Positions 20,123-28,656 of a stretch of 64,000 nt of DNA are shown here, one piece after another; position 1 is the first letter of the stretch; the number at the start of each line of letters is the position of its first letter. The stretch covers positions 62,001 through 126,000 of the forward strand of contig CAIMVG010000006.1 in the NCBI GenBank assembly GCA_903844845.1, read 5' to 3'. This DNA is from an uncultured Dehalococcoidia bacterium (GTDB lineage: Bacteria > Chloroflexota > Dehalococcoidia > Dehalococcoidales > UBA1222). Both the position numbers and the translations under genes were made by a program. The notes below the pieces were generated by a model. The model did no database searches, had not been told where the DNA came from, and was given only the letters and a program-made list of their open reading frames with translations.

Positions 20123-20359
20123 TTAGCTTTTTTCCAGTTCTTCCGTGATGTCCTGGGTCATCTTCAGGAAGAGTTTGCGGATCTTTTTCATCACCTGCTC
20201 TGCGGCCTGCTCACCGGCTTTGCGGGCTTCGGCCGCAGCCTGGCGTGCTTCAGATGCTGCTTTCTCGGCCGTTTCGATGCTGGTCTCTATGTCGTCAAGG
20301 ATTTCGGGTAACGGTTTTTCAAGAATGATATGTTTTTTCTCTTTGCCCTCTGTTGCCAT
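20123..20359 (-). CDS. Small Ala/Glu-rich coiled-coil protein, function unknown
   Basis: This is a 78-residue protein when started at ATG 20359, where GGAGGG lies 6 bases upstream; a longer frame starting at 20434 lacks a site of that quality. After KPLPEILDDIE, residues about 20-55 form a heptad-rich Ala/Glu/Lys segment (AEKAASEARQAAAEARKAGE) that should form a coiled coil. A basic/amphipathic end, KKIRKLFLKMTQDITEELE, follows. It has no transmembrane helix and no enzymatic motif. It resembles in style other small helical proteins of this type but I do not recognise a family. It is monocistronic and divergent from the hydrogenase operon. Confidence 0.65.
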   Translation of the reverse strand: MATEGKEKKHIILEKPLPEILDDIETSIETAEKAASEARQAAAEARKAGEQAAEQVMKKIRKLFLKMTQDITEELEKS

Positions 20360-20474
20360 ATTCTTCCCTCCACTGCGACCTTTTCCAAAAAGTAACTGCC
20401 TATAAATGATATCGTAATCCGGCTTTTCTGTCATTCCACATCGAAAAACCTTCTTGAAATATCGTCTTTATCAG

Positions 20475-20510: not shown

Positions 20511-20646
20511 GTTTAGAAAACCTATGGCATTCGGTATCATTGTTGTAAGGCCGGCCTATCGAAGGTCAAGTCTTCGTTTGCATGAATCTCATGCGGACGG
20601 AGTCAGCGTTTAATATTTCAGGCACCCGTTAAGCGGGTGCTTTTTT
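20511..20646 (+). promoter_or_regulatory. Structured leader RNA before the hydrogenase genes (family unknown)
   Basis: Between the promoter and the first gene are hairpins CGAAGgtcaagtCTTCG (about 20555-20572) and GCATGAatcTCATGC (about 20580-20594), followed by a strong intrinsic terminator. This is the layout of an attenuator or riboswitch, or of a short separate sRNA. I compared it by eye with common riboswitch cores (cobalamin, TPP, fluoride, NiCo, Moco, c-di-GMP) and found no convincing match. Bases 20360-20732 hold no gene. Confidence 0.45.
20622..20646 (+). terminator. Intrinsic terminator inside the hydrogenase leader
   Basis: GCACCCG pairs with CGGGTGC around TTAAG, followed at once by TTTTTT (20641-20646). 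It lies 87 bases upstream of the small-subunit start, so transcription of the operon must read through it or start after it. Confidence 0.85.
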
Positions 20647-20732
20647 GTTGCTTGCAATTTATTTCACGGCAACAGTTGGTCGTTTCAACGCCAATTTTTG
20701 AATCAGGAAAAATTTTTGAAGGAGGAGAAAAC

Positions 20733-21686
20733 ATGCAGCCAATCAACGTAATCTGGTTGCAAGGGCAGGGTTGCACAGGTGATACGGTAGCGCTCATCAG
20801 TGCCGAGAACCCTTCGCTGGTAGATGTTATCACCGGCGTTTTGCCCGAAGTCAGCGGGATCAACATCGCTTTTCATCCCACCATCATGGCGCCCTGGGGA
20901 GAGAAAGCTTTGGGACCGCTTGAGGCAGCCAAGGAAGGCAAACTGGATCCATTCGTAGTGGTCCTCGAAGGCGCCGTCCCCGACGAGAAGATCGCCCAGA
21001 AAACCGGCGGTTATTTCTGCGGAATCGGCGACATGCACGGCAAGATTGTTACTGTCACTGAAGTTCTGAACGACCTTAAGGGCAAAGCCGCAGCAATGGT
21101 AGCCATCGGCACCTGTGCTGCCTACGGCGGCATCGCCGCCGGCAAACCCAATCCCACCGGCGCTATGGGACTCGGTGCATTCCTCGGCAAAGATTATAAG
21201 AGCACGCTGGGCCTCCCCGTAATAAACGTTCCGGGATGCCCCACCCCCGGCGACAGCACCCTGAAAGCACTGGCATACCTGGTGCTGGTGGCACGTGGGG
21301 CGGCTGCGGTTCCTGCGATGGACGAATTTAACCGGCCGAAGTTCCTTTATGGGGAACTGGCTCACCATATCTGCCCGAGGGCCGGCTATCTGGCTGAAGG
21401 CAAATTCTCGCATCACTTCGGCGAGCCTTACTGCATGGGACTCCTGGGCTGCAAAGGTCCTATCGCCTATTGCCGCGTTCCCAAGTACGGCTTCTCCGGA
21501 GGTTTCGGCGGCTGCCCATCCACCGGCTCACCCTGCATCGGCTGCACCGAACCCGGTTTCCCCGACGCCCCATTCTCTCCCTTCCTCAAGAAATCCCCTG
21601 TCAAGTCCTGGGTCGTCGAAGGGATCCTGGACAACATCGGCAAGGTAAAAGCTACCGCCTCCAGATTCCACAAGAGGAGTATCTAA
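20733..21686 (+). CDS. [NiFe] hydrogenase small subunit, Tat-less, Asp in the proximal cluster motif
   Basis: This 317-residue Fe-S subunit begins at ATG 20733 with GGAGGAG upstream; an earlier in-frame start overlaps the terminator and is not used. MQPINVIWLQGQGCTGDT shows the proximal [4Fe-4S] site, with C14 and, where the usual CxxC has Cys, D17. Further cluster residues are in GTCAAYGG and NVPGCPTPGD, and a Cys-rich C-terminal third (HHICPR, PYCMGLLGCKGPI, GGCPSTGSPCIGC) would bind the medial and distal clusters. There is no twin-arginine signal and no C-terminal membrane anchor, so the enzyme should be cytoplasmic or membrane-associated on the inside. The Asp is reminiscent of the oxygen-tolerant actinobacterial-type group 1h enzymes; group 2 is an alternative. 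Confidence 0.9.
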   Translation: MQPINVIWLQGQGCTGDTVALISAENPSLVDVITGVLPEVSGINIAFHPTIMAPWGEKALGPLEAAKEGKLDPFVVVLEGAVPDEKIAQKTGGYFCGIGDMHGKIVTVTEVLNDLKGKAAAMVAIGTCAAYGGIAAGKPNPTGAMGLGAFLGKDYKSTLGLPVINVPGCPTPGDSTLKALAYLVLVARGAAAVPAMDEFNRPKFLYGELAHHICPRAGYLAEGKFSHHFGEPYCMGLLGCKGPIAYCRVPKYGFSGGFGGCPSTGSPCIGCTEPGFPDAPFSPFLKKSPVKSWVVEGILDNIGKVKATASRFHKRSI

Positions 21687-21687
21687 C

Positions 21688-23520
21688 ATGGCTAAGTCGA
21701 CTGAATTAAACATCGAACCATTGACGCGAATCGAAGGCCATATGGGCGTTAACGCCAAGGCCGACCTCGACGCGAAGAAGTACACTGACGCCCATGTGTA
21801 TGCCACAATGTTCCGCGGCCTGGAAGACATACTTATCGGCCACGAACCCGCCGACGCTATCTGGCTTGGCCAGCGCAGCTGCGGCGTATGCCCGACTCCC
21901 CATGCCATCGCCTCCGTCGAGGCTGTCGACATGTGCTACGGCGCTCCCCCTCCCCCCCTAGGCATCGGACTGCGCAACCTGGCCATCATGGCTGAAGAAG
22001 TTTATGACGGCGCGCTAGGCTGCGGTATCCTGGAAGGCCCCGACTATTCCGAAGCGATCTGCGCGAAGTCCAATCCCGAGATACTGGCCAAGGCCAATGT
22101 GACTCCCGCTCCCCGCGCAGCCGCTCACGGCTATACAACCATCGGCGACATCATGCGCGGTCTGAACCCCATCTCTGGAAGCCTGTGGCTCAAGTGTTTG
22201 GGAGCTTCCAAGACCGGGTTGGATATGGCCAGTTCACTTTGCGCTAAGCACCCGCATCAGAACAACTTTGTCCCTGGCGGCATAGCCCGCACCATCAGTA
22301 TCCCCGACCTCGAAGCCCTCTATGTTATGATTGGCAAAGAAGTCGCTTTCACCAAAGAACTGGTCCCCGCTTTCGATGACCTCGTTGATTTTCTCGGCGC
22401 CAACGGCCTGGATAAGGTAGGCGAGTTCCCCTTCAACTTCCTCTCCTATGGCGTTTATGAAGATCCCATGGCCTACAATGCTAAATATGCCGATATGAGC
22501 AAATGGGCTGAGAAGCGCTGGGTCACCCCAGGCGTAGTCATCAACGGCAAACTCATCACCAACGACCTGGTCGAGATCAACGTCGGCGTCCAGGAAACTG
22601 TCACCCACTCTTACTATAACGAGACGGTCAAGGCCGATTTCGCCAAAGACCCCAATGGCAACCCGTTGACCAAGGACCATCCCTGGAACGAGTCAACCAA
22701 ACCTGTAGCCGGCAAAGAAAAGGACTTCGAGAACAAATATACCTGGGCCAAGACGCCCCGCTGGCTCGACTGGAAGAACCGTGTGGACGGCAAGACCCAT
22801 GTCATGATGGCCAATCCCCTGGCCAGGATGTGGATCAACTCCGTTTCCAAGAAAACCCCTGAATCCACCGGCAATTCGGTCAAATTCACACTGCCCGCCG
22901 GAGCAGTAGCCGGCAACCGCGTTTCGGGCGAAGTTACCATGGAATGGAAGCAACCCAAGAACAATAACTCCATCGAGCGCGTCCGCTCCCGCGCGTATTA
23001 TCATGCCCTGTCAGCCTCAATGGCTTACCGCATGGTTGCGATCGCCCTTGACCTGCTAAAGAAAGGCGATACCAAGGTATGGAACGAATATAAGAAACCC
23101 AAGAACGGGATCGGTGTAGGTATGGTCGAGGGTATGCGCGGCGCTGTAGCCCACTGGGTAGTCATGCGCAACGGCGTCATCTACCGCTACCAGATCATCA
23201 CTCCCACCGCCTGGAATGTTTCCCCGCGCGACGCGGAAGGCCGTCCCGGAGCCTACGAAGCCGCCATTATCGGTTCTGCCGTTACCGAGCCCATCACCGG
23301 TGAACTGGACGGCATCGACGTAGTGCGCACCATACGTAGCTTTGACCCCTGCCTGGGCTGCACCGTGCAGGTATTCAACCCCCAGGAAGGCCTGCTGGCC
23401 GAGTGCGATATGGACCACCTGCATGCCGAAGAAATGGTCTCACAGTGGGAGAAATCTCACACCGTCGGCCATTCTCACGAGCATACCCACGACGGGCATA
23501 CCCATTCGCACGCTGTGTAA
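21688..23520 (+). CDS. [NiFe] hydrogenase large subunit with His-rich C-terminal tail
   Basis: This 610-residue catalytic subunit oxidises or produces H2 at a Ni-Fe(CN)2CO site. The N-terminal L1/L2 motifs are EPLTRIEGHMG and QRSCGVCPTPHA (two Ni-binding Cys; Ser where Ile or Val is more usual). The C-terminal L5 motif is DPCLGCTVQ (from residue 553), with both Cys present but Gln where the cleavage-site His or Arg normally stands. About 49 residues follow, ending in HSHEHTHDGHTHSH, a metal-binding-type tail. The maturation protease is encoded 18 bases downstream. The start is 2 bases after the small-subunit stop. Unless the protease accepts Gln, the tail may remain on the mature protein. Confidence 0.93.
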   Translation: MAKSTELNIEPLTRIEGHMGVNAKADLDAKKYTDAHVYATMFRGLEDILIGHEPADAIWLGQRSCGVCPTPHAIASVEAVDMCYGAPPPPLGIGLRNLAIMAEEVYDGALGCGILEGPDYSEAICAKSNPEILAKANVTPAPRAAAHGYTTIGDIMRGLNPISGSLWLKCLGASKTGLDMASSLCAKHPHQNNFVPGGIARTISIPDLEALYVMIGKEVAFTKELVPAFDDLVDFLGANGLDKVGEFPFNFLSYGVYEDPMAYNAKYADMSKWAEKRWVTPGVVINGKLITNDLVEINVGVQETVTHSYYNETVKADFAKDPNGNPLTKDHPWNESTKPVAGKEKDFENKYTWAKTPRWLDWKNRVDGKTHVMMANPLARMWINSVSKKTPESTGNSVKFTLPAGAVAGNRVSGEVTMEWKQPKNNNSIERVRSRAYYHALSASMAYRMVAIALDLLKKGDTKVWNEYKKPKNGIGVGMVEGMRGAVAHWVVMRNGVIYRYQIITPTAWNVSPRDAEGRPGAYEAAIIGSAVTEPITGELDGIDVVRTIRSFDPCLGCTVQVFNPQEGLLAECDMDHLHAEEMVSQWEKSHTVGHSHEHTHDGHTHSHAV

Positions 23521-23538: not shown

Positions 23539-24003
23539 TTGACGAGGACTTTGATATGCGGAGTAGGGAACAAGCTGAAACGGGACGACGGCCTGGGGCC
23601 GTTTGTCATCGAGCAGCTTGAAGACACGCCCATGCCGGAAGGCGTGGATGTGGCGGACTACGGCATATCGGGTTTCAAATGCGCTCTCAAGCTAGAGGGC
23701 TACAATAAAGTTATCTTTGTGGATGCCATAAGCCTGCCCGGCTTCGAGCCGGGCAGGCTTCACCGTTTGAAAATCAATAAAGACAAACTCATGAAGAGCC
23801 CCAGGCTTTCAGATTTCAGCCTGTCCATGCATGAAACCGACCTTGAGCGCATCATGGCAACCGCCGCGGTACTCAACATCTACCCGGATGAAGTAGTAAT
23901 CATTGGCTGCGAACCCTCGGACACCGCGGTCGGCCTCGGACTCACCAAACCTGTCGAAGCCGCCGTCCCCAAAATCATCGAGCTTATACTTAAAGAGCTC
24001 TAA
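23539..24003 (+). CDS. Hydrogenase maturation protease (HyaD/HycI family)
   Basis: This 154-residue endopeptidase removes the C-terminal extension of the large subunit after nickel insertion. The family pattern is clear: TLICGVGNKLKRDDGLGPFVIEQL (N-terminal GxGN, then the metal-binding Asp of the DDG motif), a second acidic residue in VADYGISG, FVDA, and the His of SMHETDL. The start is TTG at 23539, the only frame-compatible start that leaves a standard N-terminus, with GAAGAAGG upstream. It lies between the large subunit and hypF. Its substrate has an atypical cleavage motif, which makes the specificity of this protease interesting. Confidence 0.92.
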   Translation: MTRTLICGVGNKLKRDDGLGPFVIEQLEDTPMPEGVDVADYGISGFKCALKLEGYNKVIFVDAISLPGFEPGRLHRLKINKDKLMKSPRLSDFSLSMHETDLERIMATAAVLNIYPDEVVIIGCEPSDTAVGLGLTKPVEAAVPKIIELILKEL

Positions 24004-24043: not shown

Positions 24044-26350
24044 ATGAAAGATATTTCCGCTATCCATCATTACAACATCAGGGCCTACGGCGTAGTACAG
24101 GGCGTTGGTTTCCGTCCTTTTATCTACCAGTTGGCCCTTCAACATAGCCTCCGCGGGGCTGTTTGCAACACATCGGGTTATGTCGAAATAGATGTCGAAG
24201 GGCCTCGAACAAAGCTGGAATACTTCCTGGCTGACATCACCGCCAAAGCGCCTCCGGCGGCCATAATAGAGCGATTGGTAACCCTTGAACAGCCGGTAGG
24301 GGGTTACTCACAATTTCTAATCCTTGATAGCAGGCCAAATCCCGGAGAATACCAGTTGATTTCGCCTGATCTGGCAACCTGCACCGAGTGTGCCGCTGAG
24401 ATAATGGACCCTAAAAACCGGCGTTTCGGATACGCGTTCACTAACTGCACCAACTGCGGCCCCCGCTTCACTATTATTAAAGATATCCCCTACGACCGCG
24501 TAGCTACCACCATGGATAAATTTACAATGTGCCTACAGTGCCAGGCAGAATATGACGACCCGGGTAATCGCAGGTTTCACGCACAGCCTAACGCTTGCCC
24601 CGTGTGCGGCCCAAAGCTTCAGCTGGTCGGGAAAAACGGATATGTCATCCCCACCGGCGCTCCGATTTCCAGGTCGGCCGAGTTCCTGCTCGATGGCAAG
24701 ATCATGGGGATAAAGGGGCTGGGAGGGTTTTTACTGGCTTGCGACGCAACTAATGACGCTGCCGTCGGAGCGCTGAGGGCCCGGAAAAAACGCCCTTCCA
24801 AACCATTCGCAGTGATGGTTTCAAGCATCGAGGAGGCGAATAGATATTGTTTTGTTTCAGAATCCGAGGCTGAATCGCTACGCTCCAGCCGGAGCCCGAT
24901 AGTCTTATTGAAAATGCGTGAAGGCGCGTCGCTGTCCGGAGGCATCGCTCCTGGTTTGAAATACCTGGGATTGGTGTTGCCGTATACGCCGCTGCACCAC
25001 CTGCTTATGAAACAAGCCGGAGTCCCGCTGGTGATGACCAGCGGAAATCTGAGTGAAGAACCCATCGCGCAAAAGAACAGCGAAGCGTTGATGCGATTGG
25101 GCGGGGTTGCGGACTATTTCCTGTGGCACAACCGCGACATTTATGTGACTTACGACGACAGTGTCGTCTTGCAGGCGGCGGGGGAAACAACGGTGATCCG
25201 GCGCGCAAGGGGTTATGCTCCCTACCCCATTCAGCCAGGACGGGAGCTGGGACAGGTCCTTGCCTGCGGTGCTGAAATGAAAGGCTCCTTTTGCCTGACG
25301 CGCGATAACCATGCGTTCGTGAGCCAGCATATCGGGGACCTGGAGAACGTTGAAACCCTTGAACATTTTGAAAGCACGATCGGGATATACGAAAAATTAT
25401 TCCGCATAAAACCCGCCATAATCGCCCATGACCTGCACCCGGACTACCTGAGCACTCATTACGCACGGGACAGAGCCGAAGCCGATACATCTTTAAAATT
25501 ATTCCCCGTACAGCATCATCATGCGCATATAGCATCCTGTATGGCCGAGAACGGGACCCGGGGCCCTGTCATCGGGGTCGCTCTCGACGGAACCGGCTAC
25601 GGAACCGACGGCAATATCTGGGGCGGGGAGATTTTGCTGGCAGATTACAAAGGTTTTGAACGGCTCGCCCACCTTGAATATGTCCCGTTGCCCGGGGGAG
25701 ACGCAGCCACTAAAAAACCCATCAGGATAGCGGCTGCTTACCTTTACCACCTGCTCGGGGAGGGCGGGCTGCAAAGGTCCGGCCTGATGACGAGGATCGA
25801 ACCCGAAGAATTGTCTTTGTTAAAACAGCAGATGGATAAAAGAATAAACTCACCCTACACTTCGAGCTGCGGAAGGCTTTTTGACGCAGTGGCATCGCTG
25901 TTAGGGATAAAGGACAGCATCAATTATGAGGCCCAGGCGGCCATCGAACTGGAGATGTGCGCGACCGGTGTTGAAGGGAACGCAAAGTTGAGATATCCCT
26001 TTGAAATTGGCGAGAAACCCGGGTTGAAAACCATTCGTCTGGGGGCCCTCTTTGATGCTATACTAAACGATATAAACAACGGCCGAAGCCGCCCTGAAAT
26101 CGCCTATAGTTTCCACGATTCACTCGCCGCAAGCATCGCGGGATTGTGCGAAAACCTGTCGGGAAAAAGCGGGATAAGATCTGTCGCGTTAAGCGGCGGT
26201 GTATTTCAGAACCGGTTGCTGTTTCGCCTGCTTTTCAAAGCTTTGCAGGAAAAAGGTTTAGACGTTCTCACTCATAAACAAGTGCCGTCCAATGACGGCG
26301 GCATAGCGCTGGGACAGGCGATGATCGCCGGTTCCGCGCACGAAAACTAA
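24044..26350 (+). CDS. hypF: Carbamoyltransferase HypF
   Basis: The protein is about 768 residues. It makes the carbamoyl group that HypE converts to the cyanide ligands of the Ni-Fe site. Domains in order: acylphosphatase-like (VQGVGFRPF, residues about 15-95), two zinc fingers (CTECAAEIMDP with NCTNCGPRF; CLQCQAEYDDP with NACPVCGP, about 110-190), a YrdC-like domain (ISRSAEFLLDGKIMGIKGLGG to TSGNLSEEPI) and a Kae1/TobZ-like carbamoyltransferase domain (VQHHHAHIASCMAENG, then ALDGTGYGTDGNIWGGE and SGGVFQNRLL). The start at 24044 gives the usual N-terminus; the open frame extends 47 codons further into the protease gene without conservation. Confidence 0.96.
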   Translation: MKDISAIHHYNIRAYGVVQGVGFRPFIYQLALQHSLRGAVCNTSGYVEIDVEGPRTKLEYFLADITAKAPPAAIIERLVTLEQPVGGYSQFLILDSRPNPGEYQLISPDLATCTECAAEIMDPKNRRFGYAFTNCTNCGPRFTIIKDIPYDRVATTMDKFTMCLQCQAEYDDPGNRRFHAQPNACPVCGPKLQLVGKNGYVIPTGAPISRSAEFLLDGKIMGIKGLGGFLLACDATNDAAVGALRARKKRPSKPFAVMVSSIEEANRYCFVSESEAESLRSSRSPIVLLKMREGASLSGGIAPGLKYLGLVLPYTPLHHLLMKQAGVPLVMTSGNLSEEPIAQKNSEALMRLGGVADYFLWHNRDIYVTYDDSVVLQAAGETTVIRRARGYAPYPIQPGRELGQVLACGAEMKGSFCLTRDNHAFVSQHIGDLENVETLEHFESTIGIYEKLFRIKPAIIAHDLHPDYLSTHYARDRAEADTSLKLFPVQHHHAHIASCMAENGTRGPVIGVALDGTGYGTDGNIWGGEILLADYKGFERLAHLEYVPLPGGDAATKKPIRIAAAYLYHLLGEGGLQRSGLMTRIEPEELSLLKQQMDKRINSPYTSSCGRLFDAVASLLGIKDSINYEAQAAIELEMCATGVEGNAKLRYPFEIGEKPGLKTIRLGALFDAILNDINNGRSRPEIAYSFHDSLAASIAGLCENLSGKSGIRSVALSGGVFQNRLLFRLLFKALQEKGLDVLTHKQVPSNDGGIALGQAMIAGSAHEN

Positions 26351-26362
26351 CGGAGGTATTCG

Positions 26363-26581
26363 ATGTGTGTTGCAGTCCCTGCTCTTATCGTGAATCTTAA
26401 CGGTACCGACGCGGAAGTCGATATCGAGGGTGTGCGCAGAAAAACCAGCATTTACCTGACACCCGAAGCAAAACTAGGCGATTACGTGCTGATGCACGCG
26501 GGTTTCGCCATCAGGGTGATAGACCTGCAGGAAGCTAAAGAGACGATTGCCTTGTTGAAGGAAATCAATGCAACCGGTTAA
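26363..26581 (+). CDS. hypC: Hydrogenase assembly chaperone HypC
   Basis: This 72-residue chaperone begins MCVAVPALI, with the essential Cys at position 2 used to carry the Fe(CN)2CO unit together with HypD. The YVLMHAGFAIRVID segment is the typical central OB-fold signature. It begins 12 bases after hypF with GGAGG upstream, and overlaps the hypD start by 14 bases, so the pair is translationally coupled. Confidence 0.96.
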   Translation: MCVAVPALIVNLNGTDAEVDIEGVRRKTSIYLTPEAKLGDYVLMHAGFAIRVIDLQEAKETIALLKEINATG

Positions 26582-27662
26582 CGATTTTCGTGATTCGGAA
26601 CTGGCGCTTGCGCTGGTTGAAAAAATAAAACGGCGGGCGCAAGGCCCGGCCCGATTGATGGAGTTTTGCGGGAGCCACACCGCAGCAATCCTCAAGTTCG
26701 GTTTAAGGCAGCTTCTGCCGCCGGGGGTGGAGATGCTTTCGGGCCCGGGCTGCCCGGTATGCGTTACCGACCAGGCCGATATCGACCGGGCCATCGAACT
26801 GGCGAGAGTGCCCGGTTTAGTACTTTGTACCTTCGGGGACATGTTGAAAGTCCCCGGGACATACTCCAGCTTGCAACAGGCGAGGGCCGAGGGCTGCGAC
26901 GTGCGGATGGTGTATTCGACCCTCGACGCCGTGGAAATCGCGGTTGCCAATCCAGAAAAGCCTGTAGTATTCCTAGGCGTCGGATTTGAAACTACCGCCC
27001 CGACTATCGCAGCCTCCATTGCACAGGCGAGCAGCCGTAAAATCAAAAATTACTCGGTTTTTTCTCTTGCGAAATTGTGCCCTCCTGTCATGAAAGCCCT
27101 GCTGGACGGCGGGGAAATTAAAATCGAGGGCATTATCTGCCCCGGCCATGTCAGTGCCATCATCGGCTCGAAACCCTATGAATTTATCCCCCGCGATTAC
27201 AATATAGGCTGTGTTGTGGCAGGGTTCGAACCGGTCGATATCCTTATGGCTGTTGACCGTTTGCTGGCGCAGATAGAAAGCCGGGCCCCGGCGGTGGAGA
27301 TCGCCTACGGAAGGACGGTTTCCCCTGAAGGCAATTTAATCGCGCAGCAGTTGCTGTATGAGATATTCGAGCCTCAACCCGCCCGTTGGAGGGGCGTGGG
27401 TGAAGTGGGCGGAAGCGGGTATAAGATCCGTGAGAAATACCGTGAATTTGATGCGGAGCGTCTTTTTGTCATAAATCCCGGACCGGCGAAAGAACCCGCA
27501 GGATGCCGTTGCGGCGACGTTTTGCGTGGATTAATACGTCCGACCGGTTGTCCGCTTTTCGGCCGCGCCTGCACCCCTGAGCGCCCGGTGGGCCCGTGCA
27601 TGGTCTCGGGCGAAGGCGCATGCGCCAGCTACTACCTCTTCGGAGAAGGCGATGGAAGATAA
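26568..27662 (+). CDS. hypD: Hydrogenase formation protein HypD
   Basis: This 364-residue Fe-S scaffold joins HypC to assemble Fe(CN)2CO. The invariant segments are FCGSHTAAI (catalytic-type Cys), SGPGCPVCVT (redox Cys pair), VGFETTAP, CPGHVSAIIG and a C-terminal set of Cys around CRCGDVLRGL, CPLFGRACTPERPVGPCMVS and EGACASYY that bind the [4Fe-4S] cluster. Length is standard. It overlaps hypC (14 bases) and hypE (11 bases). Confidence 0.96.
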   Translation: MQPVNDFRDSELALALVEKIKRRAQGPARLMEFCGSHTAAILKFGLRQLLPPGVEMLSGPGCPVCVTDQADIDRAIELARVPGLVLCTFGDMLKVPGTYSSLQQARAEGCDVRMVYSTLDAVEIAVANPEKPVVFLGVGFETTAPTIAASIAQASSRKIKNYSVFSLAKLCPPVMKALLDGGEIKIEGIICPGHVSAIIGSKPYEFIPRDYNIGCVVAGFEPVDILMAVDRLLAQIESRAPAVEIAYGRTVSPEGNLIAQQLLYEIFEPQPARWRGVGEVGGSGYKIREKYREFDAERLFVINPGPAKEPAGCRCGDVLRGLIRPTGCPLFGRACTPERPVGPCMVSGEGACASYYLFGEGDGR

Positions 27663-28656
27663 AGTCCTTATGGCCCACGGGAGCGGAGGGAAGCTGACCC
27701 ACGAACTCATAAACCGGTGTTTCGTGGGAAAACTCAGCAATCCATGGCTGGCCCGTATGGATGATTCAGCCATCCTTGAATCAGAAGGCCGGATGGCTTT
27801 CACAACCGACAGTTATGTTGTAACCCCGTTATTTTTCCCGGGCGGCGACATCGGCAAACTGGCGGTTTGCGGTACCGTTAATGACCTTGCGGTGAGCGGG
27901 GCGAAGCCCAGGTTCCTGAGCCTGGCTTTTATCATAGAAGAGGGGTTGGAAATATCCGACCTGGAAAAAGTCGTAGATTCGATCAGCAAAACCGCGCAGG
28001 CTGCGGGGGTTGAAGTCGTCACCGGGGACACCAAGGTAGTGCAGAGAGGAAAAGCCGACAGGCTGTTCGTAAATACCGCCGGAATAGGATATATCCCTGC
28101 CGGAATCAATGTTTCGGGGTCCAATGTCAAAGCGGGAGACGTGATCATTTTAAGCGGTACGATAGGCGACCACGGGATGACCATCATGGCCCAGAGGGAA
28201 GGGCTGCGCTTTTCCGGTGACCTGGCGAGCGATTGCGCCCCCTTGAATGGGTTGATAACTGAAATGCTGCAGGCATGCCCCGATATCCGCTGTATGCGTG
28301 ACCCTACGCGGGGAGGCGTCGCCACCACCTTGAACGAAATCGCTGCACAATCTAAAGTGGGGATGCGCATCGAGGATGGTTCCATCCCTGTCCGGCCCCC
28401 TGTTTCCGCCATGTGCGAATTACTCGGGCTGGACCCTCTTTATATAGCCAACGAAGGTAAAATACTGGCTTTCGTGCCTGAGGCGGTTGCCGGGGGAGTG
28501 CTCGAAATAATGCGGCGGCACCAGTACGGCAAGGATGCAGCGATAATCGGGAGTGTCACGGGGGAACACCCGGGCAGAGTAACATTGAAGACCCGGCTGG
28601 GAACATCCAGGATACTCGCAATGCTGTCCGGAGACATCCTGCCTCGCATCTGTTGA
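27652..28656 (+). CDS. hypE: Hydrogenase expression/formation protein HypE
   Basis: This 334-residue PurM-like ATPase dehydrates a carbamoyl group on its C-terminal Cys to thiocyanate. It begins with LMAHGSGGKLTHELI, contains MDDSAILES (ATP-binding Asp), FTTDSYVVTPLFFPGGDIG and DPTRGGVATTLNEIA, and ends with the required terminal Cys (LPRIC). It is the last gene of the hydrogenase operon and is followed by a strong terminator. hypA and hypB, which deliver nickel, are not in this window. Confidence 0.97.
   Translation: MEDKVLMAHGSGGKLTHELINRCFVGKLSNPWLARMDDSAILESEGRMAFTTDSYVVTPLFFPGGDIGKLAVCGTVNDLAVSGAKPRFLSLAFIIEEGLEISDLEKVVDSISKTAQAAGVEVVTGDTKVVQRGKADRLFVNTAGIGYIPAGINVSGSNVKAGDVIILSGTIGDHGMTIMAQREGLRFSGDLASDCAPLNGLITEMLQACPDIRCMRDPTRGGVATTLNEIAAQSKVGMRIEDGSIPVRPPVSAMCELLGLDPLYIANEGKILAFVPEAVAGGVLEIMRRHQYGKDAAIIGSVTGEHPGRVTLKTRLGTSRILAMLSGDILPRIC

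Follow-up and report, generated by a model that had tools for sequence, protein, structure and literature searches.

The actinobacterial-type group 1h [NiFe] hydrogenases, represented by the R. eutropha structure 5AA5, carry a hallmark Asp in the proximal-cluster motif of the small subunit (SSU). In crystallised enzymes, the terminal His of the large subunit (LSU) is a ligand of an Mg site. A Chloroflexota clade, possibly group 1l or 1m and here called clade X (L075-L079), groups with 1h. According to PMC11018855, the Sulfolobales SUL clades stand closest to 1l and 1h. We compare with these systems a hydrogenase locus in the window, the whole stretch of 64,000 nucleotides of uncultured Dehalococcoidia DNA that was analysed. 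The locus probably encodes a [NiFe] hydrogenase of uptake type, with two subunits and a cytoplasmic location, that belongs to a deep lineage and into which nickel would be inserted without recognisable HypA/HypB.

Hydrogenase genes and predicted cofactor ligands

The SSU and LSU genes are followed by a protease gene and hypFCDE (Table 1), and the hyp order is kept in a second family locus (L034). The SSU starts at the ATG at 20733, preceded by a strong ribosome-binding site (AGGAGGAG, at 20720). A twin-arginine motif is absent from the SSU and from the longer upstream frame starting at 20637. Because the cell has a Tat system (TatC is encoded in the window genome), the absence of a Tat signal from the hydrogenase is informative and suggests a cytoplasmic enzyme. 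Pfam domains at the locus are NiFe_hyd_SSU_C, Oxidored_q6 and NiFeSe_Hases, plus the adjoining HycI-family protease. A small divergent ORF without Pfam match lies on the reverse strand at 20123-20434 and is kept at 85% identity in L035.

Table 1. Features of the hydrogenase locus, with positions in the window
Feature	Position	Strand	Evidence
SSU, [NiFe]-hydrogenase, 317 aa, without Tat signal	20733..21686	+	Pfam PF14720, PF01058; best PDB match 5AA5_A, E 5.6e-72
Proximal-cluster motif C14-T-G-D17	20772..20783	+	invariant in 7/7 family loci; aligns to CDGD (group 1h), CDGC (clade X)
LSU precursor, [NiFe]-hydrogenase, 610 aa	21688..23520	+	PF00374 E 1.1e-69; 5AA5_C E 1.9e-113; fold TMt 0.93
Q561, residue preceding the expected protease cut	23368..23370	+	7 Q vs 81 H among 88 LSUs with complete tails
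C-terminal tail, 49 aa, removal expected; HxH 577-579; His-rich run 595-608 (nt 23470-23511)	23371..23517	+	tail comparison
Maturation protease for hydrogenase (HycI/HyaD family), TTG start	23539..24003	+	PF01750 E 4.3e-20; TIGR00072 over cut-off
HypF	24044..26350	+	TIGR00143, 805 bits
HypC	26363..26581	+	TIGR00074 over cut-off
HypD	26568..27662	+	TIGR00075, 449 bits
HypE, C-terminal end PRIC	27652..28656	+	TIGR02124, 480 bits; sequence

The LSU contains the motifs RSCGVC and DPC555LGC558TVQ561, and its four Ni/Fe Cys ligands (RxCGxC, DPCxxC: C65, C68, C555 and C558) are invariant, the ligand set of [NiFe] groups 1 and 2. By alignment, the remaining proximal ligands (C128, C169), the distal-cluster ligands (H211, C214, C234, C240) and the medial ligands (C247, where the group 1a alignment is slightly shifted, C261, C268 and C271) are intact. 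A [4Fe-4S] medial cluster is expected, since C261 is a Cys where many enzymes have Pro; that of 5AA5 was likewise inferred from its sequence.

In the proposed enzyme, for which we infer metal ligation, cut site, catalytic direction and cellular location, H2 would be split in the LSU at a NiFe(CN)2CO site held by the four Cys. Electrons would then pass from a proximal cluster (three Cys plus D17) through the four-Cys medial cluster to a His/Cys distal cluster and end on a putative soluble or membrane acceptor, this acceptor and the catalytic direction being guesses.

Distribution of the family

Among 156 genomes of the order, LSU relatives at 68-86% identity occur in the window genome (97.9% complete) and in six others (drafts, 77-91% complete), all within the window's own family. 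The subunits of these hydrogenase loci, each with an SSU-LSU pair, share 66-87% identity with those of the window, and a protease gene lies directly behind the LSU gene in five of the other loci. CTGDT and DPCLGCTVQ are both present in 7/7 distinct loci; motifs common to seven loci rule out sequencing error or chance at D17 and Q561. The initial annotation, which had described a CTGDT small subunit (C14, D17) without twin-arginine signal and an LSU ending in DPCLGCTVQ with an unusual Gln, is thus confirmed on both points, with its coordinates correct. In one draft, the LSU match contains a single internal TAG (L041, G504:C54).

Relatives outside the family reach ≤45% identity among 400 genomes sampled from the phylum and 393 from the class. 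A scan of genome contigs recovered four relatives, named termite-gut Dehalococcoidia MAGs to which four of the family genomes correspond; their sample codes correspond to Labiotermes labralis, Neocapritermes taracua and Termes hospes (PMC7024585). Relatives were absent from the viral contigs scanned.

Terminal Gln, nickel insertion and the removable tail

All seven LSUs with Gln before the expected cut are members of the family, the other 81 of 88 distinct LSUs with complete tails having His at this position. The companion Glu of the Mg site is kept (E46 aligns to E57 of E. coli Hyd-1), so that Q561 may serve at this site.

That part of the standard Hyp set made up of HypC, HypD, HypE, HypF and the endopeptidase is present at the window locus: HypCDEF would assemble the Fe(CN)2CO moiety, and the adjacent protease would cleave the LSU after Q561. 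In the seven genomes with the hydrogenase (one 97.9% complete, six at 77-91%), neither HypA (PF01155) nor HypB (TIGR00073) had a match above cut-off, and both were clearly detected in 5/5 controls from the order and phylum. A weak HypB match in G504 was rejected as a candidate, its ORF looking like one for a MobB-like P-loop protein. Nickel would then enter the LSU without recognisable HypA/HypB, an anomaly that the initial annotation had missed. If these proteins are truly missing, there is another route for nickel insertion, which in [NiFe]-hydrogenases is thought to need HypA/HypB unless nickel is high. The literature consulted, mostly titles and abstracts, described no [NiFe]-hydrogenase system as plainly lacking HypA/HypB.

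The family tails differ from those of other LSUs. HxH occurs behind the Gln in 7/7 family tails vs 0/81 in other LSUs, and tail length is 29-52 aa in the family vs 15-40 aa (mostly 15-24) elsewhere. Five of the seven family tails are strongly His-rich, with repeated HxH.

Two explanations for the missing nickel proteins were weighed. The chances are about even that nickel is delivered by another metallochaperone (SlyD-, UreE/UreG- or CooC-like), by unrecognised HypA/HypB or by high cytoplasmic nickel, with the His-rich tail incidental. Rescue of hypB mutants by Ni supplementation (PMC12134894) is consistent with this, as is a cation-efflux (CDF) gene located downstream of the protease gene in a sister locus (L035:7705-8586); however, the targeted genome stretches read contain none of such chaperones, and the family-specific HxH tail is left unexplained.

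Loading in cis, in which the His-rich removable LSU tail would bind Ni, pass it to the active site and make HypA/HypB dispensable, is unlikely. HypA/HypB would on this account have been replaced by a metal-binding peptide within the LSU precursor, placed behind Gln instead of His and removed after nickel has arrived. The joint occurrence of undetected HypA/HypB and long HxH tails across the family argues for it, and a local Ni concentrator is made plausible by the bypass of the HypAB system at high nickel and by the His-rich nickel stores of some HypB proteins (PMC12134894). Yet the two most divergent members, in which HypA/HypB are also undetected, have short tails that lack a His-rich run and contain HxH once; judged by sequence, the tail is equally likely to bind Zn or Co; and the tail of the R. 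eutropha MBH is dispensable for cofactor insertion (PMC7294309).

Host physiology

The window genome contains neither a second PF00374 gene over cut-off nor a PF02906 ([FeFe] hydrogenase) gene. A candidate second hydrogenase on contig C9 was rejected because it is a Nuo-like fusion of C and D that sits in a complex I-like cluster; this cluster (L166:4859-11505 and on) encodes a fused NuoC/NuoD-like subunit, with no NADH module in the stretch read. Genes for COX2 with a cytochrome c domain, COX1 (E 9.1e-142) and a UbiA-type (heme O synthase-like) protein (C8:97389-98711; L164:8000-12400) share a contig with a reductive-dehalogenase homologue. Two such homologues (PF13486, ~465 aa, Tat-like N-termini) are encoded on contigs C8 and C9 (L165:6610-8001 and L166:14582-15985).

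The oxidase genes reject a strict anaerobe and make O2 use by the host possible. The earlier description of the organism as an apparent anaerobe is therefore doubtful for the window genome, although in G497, G498, G499 and G504, four of the seven hydrogenase-bearing genomes, neither COX nor cytochrome bd was detected.

By way of the encoded oxidase, electrons from H2 might be passed to O2, which would serve to scavenge O2 where the gut is micro-oxic. The COX1, COX2 and UbiA-type genes, the cytochrome bd of the sister genus g228 and the description of termite-gut symbionts that oxidise H2 and reduce O2 (PMC12887300) all favour such a route, but the four hydrogenase-bearing genomes without either oxidase detected and the failure to find a linking electron carrier leave it somewhat doubtful. 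The role of termite-gut Dehalococcoidia has been called unclear (PMC7024585); they now gain a likely H2-consuming function.

Phylogenetic position and the proximal Asp

By sequence and predicted fold, the best match of both subunits is 5AA5 (35-38% identity), with a TMt of 0.93 for the LSU, whose model has low confidence over most of residues 573-610, and of 0.72 for the SSU, whose model is poor past residue 206; the structure models drew on alignments of window and genome loci. The LSU tree places the family (100/100) outside a grouping of clade X and group 1h (98/90) and unites all three at 100/99. The SSU tree has the same topology, with clade X and 1h joined without the family at 100/99, and the joined SSU+LSU tree, built with the ligand (Asp) column removed, again recovers X + 1h without the family (SH-aLRT 98). 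The AU test against family + 1h without X gave p 0.0152 for a grouping chosen after the trees were seen. Group 1h forms a separate 100/100 clade, and clade X, with CDGC and without Asp, lies nearer to it than the family does.

The SSU, LSU and joined trees together with the AU test reject membership of group 1h. Membership of group 2 (2a/2b) was also rejected, the group 2-like rows forming their own 100/100 clade, and so was identity with the Dehalococcoides Hup enzyme, which falls in a separate clade. The family is probably, as part of the overall reading, a deep branch sister to group 1h + clade X, undescribed among reachable sequences and papers, in trees whose references were mostly from Chloroflexota and plasmids and came without labelled groups 1l, 1m and Sulfolobales SUL1/SUL2; a nearer described group could exist because those labelled references are absent. 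The new branch is placed beside hydrogenases that consume atmospheric H2.

These results bear unevenly on the initial annotation. Its "group 1h-like" finds partial support at the level of the superclade (family + clade X + 1h) and in the match to 5AA5, and fails for the 1h clade itself. The classification of both subunits that it had called for yields a branch separate from 1h and from group 2, within the same set of references; a group carrying both CTGD and CTVQ exists only as this new family. D17 does align to the Asp of the 1h motif CDGD.

O2 tolerance, which had been read from that Asp, is unsupported by descent. With four Cys in clade X (CDGC), at least two changes of the Asp are required, and two gains or one gain plus one loss are equal at two steps. 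Because the family branches outside 1h + clade X, the Asp is homoplastic and gives no proof of inherited O2 tolerance. Asp or Asn recurs at the proximal position in several groups (CSGNT, CAGNT, CGGDT). Four other Chloroflexota SSUs (L139, L146, L120, L153) have CGGDT, CGGDS or CTGDT, a recurrence of Asp outside 1h. The hallmark Asp of 1h, having arisen or been lost more than once, cannot alone mark O2 tolerance. A literature search for group 1h and proximal Asp found nothing.

An ordinary divergent group 1h enzyme that kept the ancestral Asp and O2 tolerance, with clade X reverted to Cys, would agree with the 5AA5 match, the 100/99 union, the equal step count and the heme-copper oxidase encoded in the genome, but it is improbable given the position of the family outside 1h + X in all three trees (AU p=0.015 against family + 1h), the 36-38% identity to 1h LSUs, and a locus without DPCLPCGVH or the gene neighbours seen in L067-L069.

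Comparison with known systems

The [NiFeSe] hydrogenases, the next-best PDB match of the SSU, share the four-Cys medial site with the deep-branching enzyme; in contrast, their motif is CTGC, and the window proteins fall far short of the NCBIfam thresholds (204 vs 470 and 182 vs 780 bits). The group 1a-like and Hup enzymes of Dehalococcoidales come from the same bacterial order, but are about 30-35% identical and have CxGC, His before the cut and HypA/HypB.

Clade X belongs to the same superclade, with 40-42% LSU identity and the RxCGVC site. It differs in its CDGC motif with four Cys, in DPCMPCTTH, in SSU and LSU genes that lie apart and in the presence of HypA/HypB (G126). LSUs of 41-43% identity in three more Dehalococcoidia genomes (L158, L159, L160) are probably clade X.

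Next to the window hydrogenase genes, at this locus, NifU, DUF5947 and DUF6084 are absent; these neighbour the 1h genes in L067 and L068, and also in L069, where a 'hypothetical protein' stands in for NifU. HypA/HypB were found in a 1h genome (G124) and not in the family. Group 1h (5AA5) resembles the family most closely, as a Tat-less, two-subunit enzyme with the proximal-motif Asp, the four-Cys medial site and the best sequence and fold match, and differs in that its LSU ends in DPCLPCGVH where the family, on a deep branch of its own, has DPCLGCTVQ and a long HxH tail.
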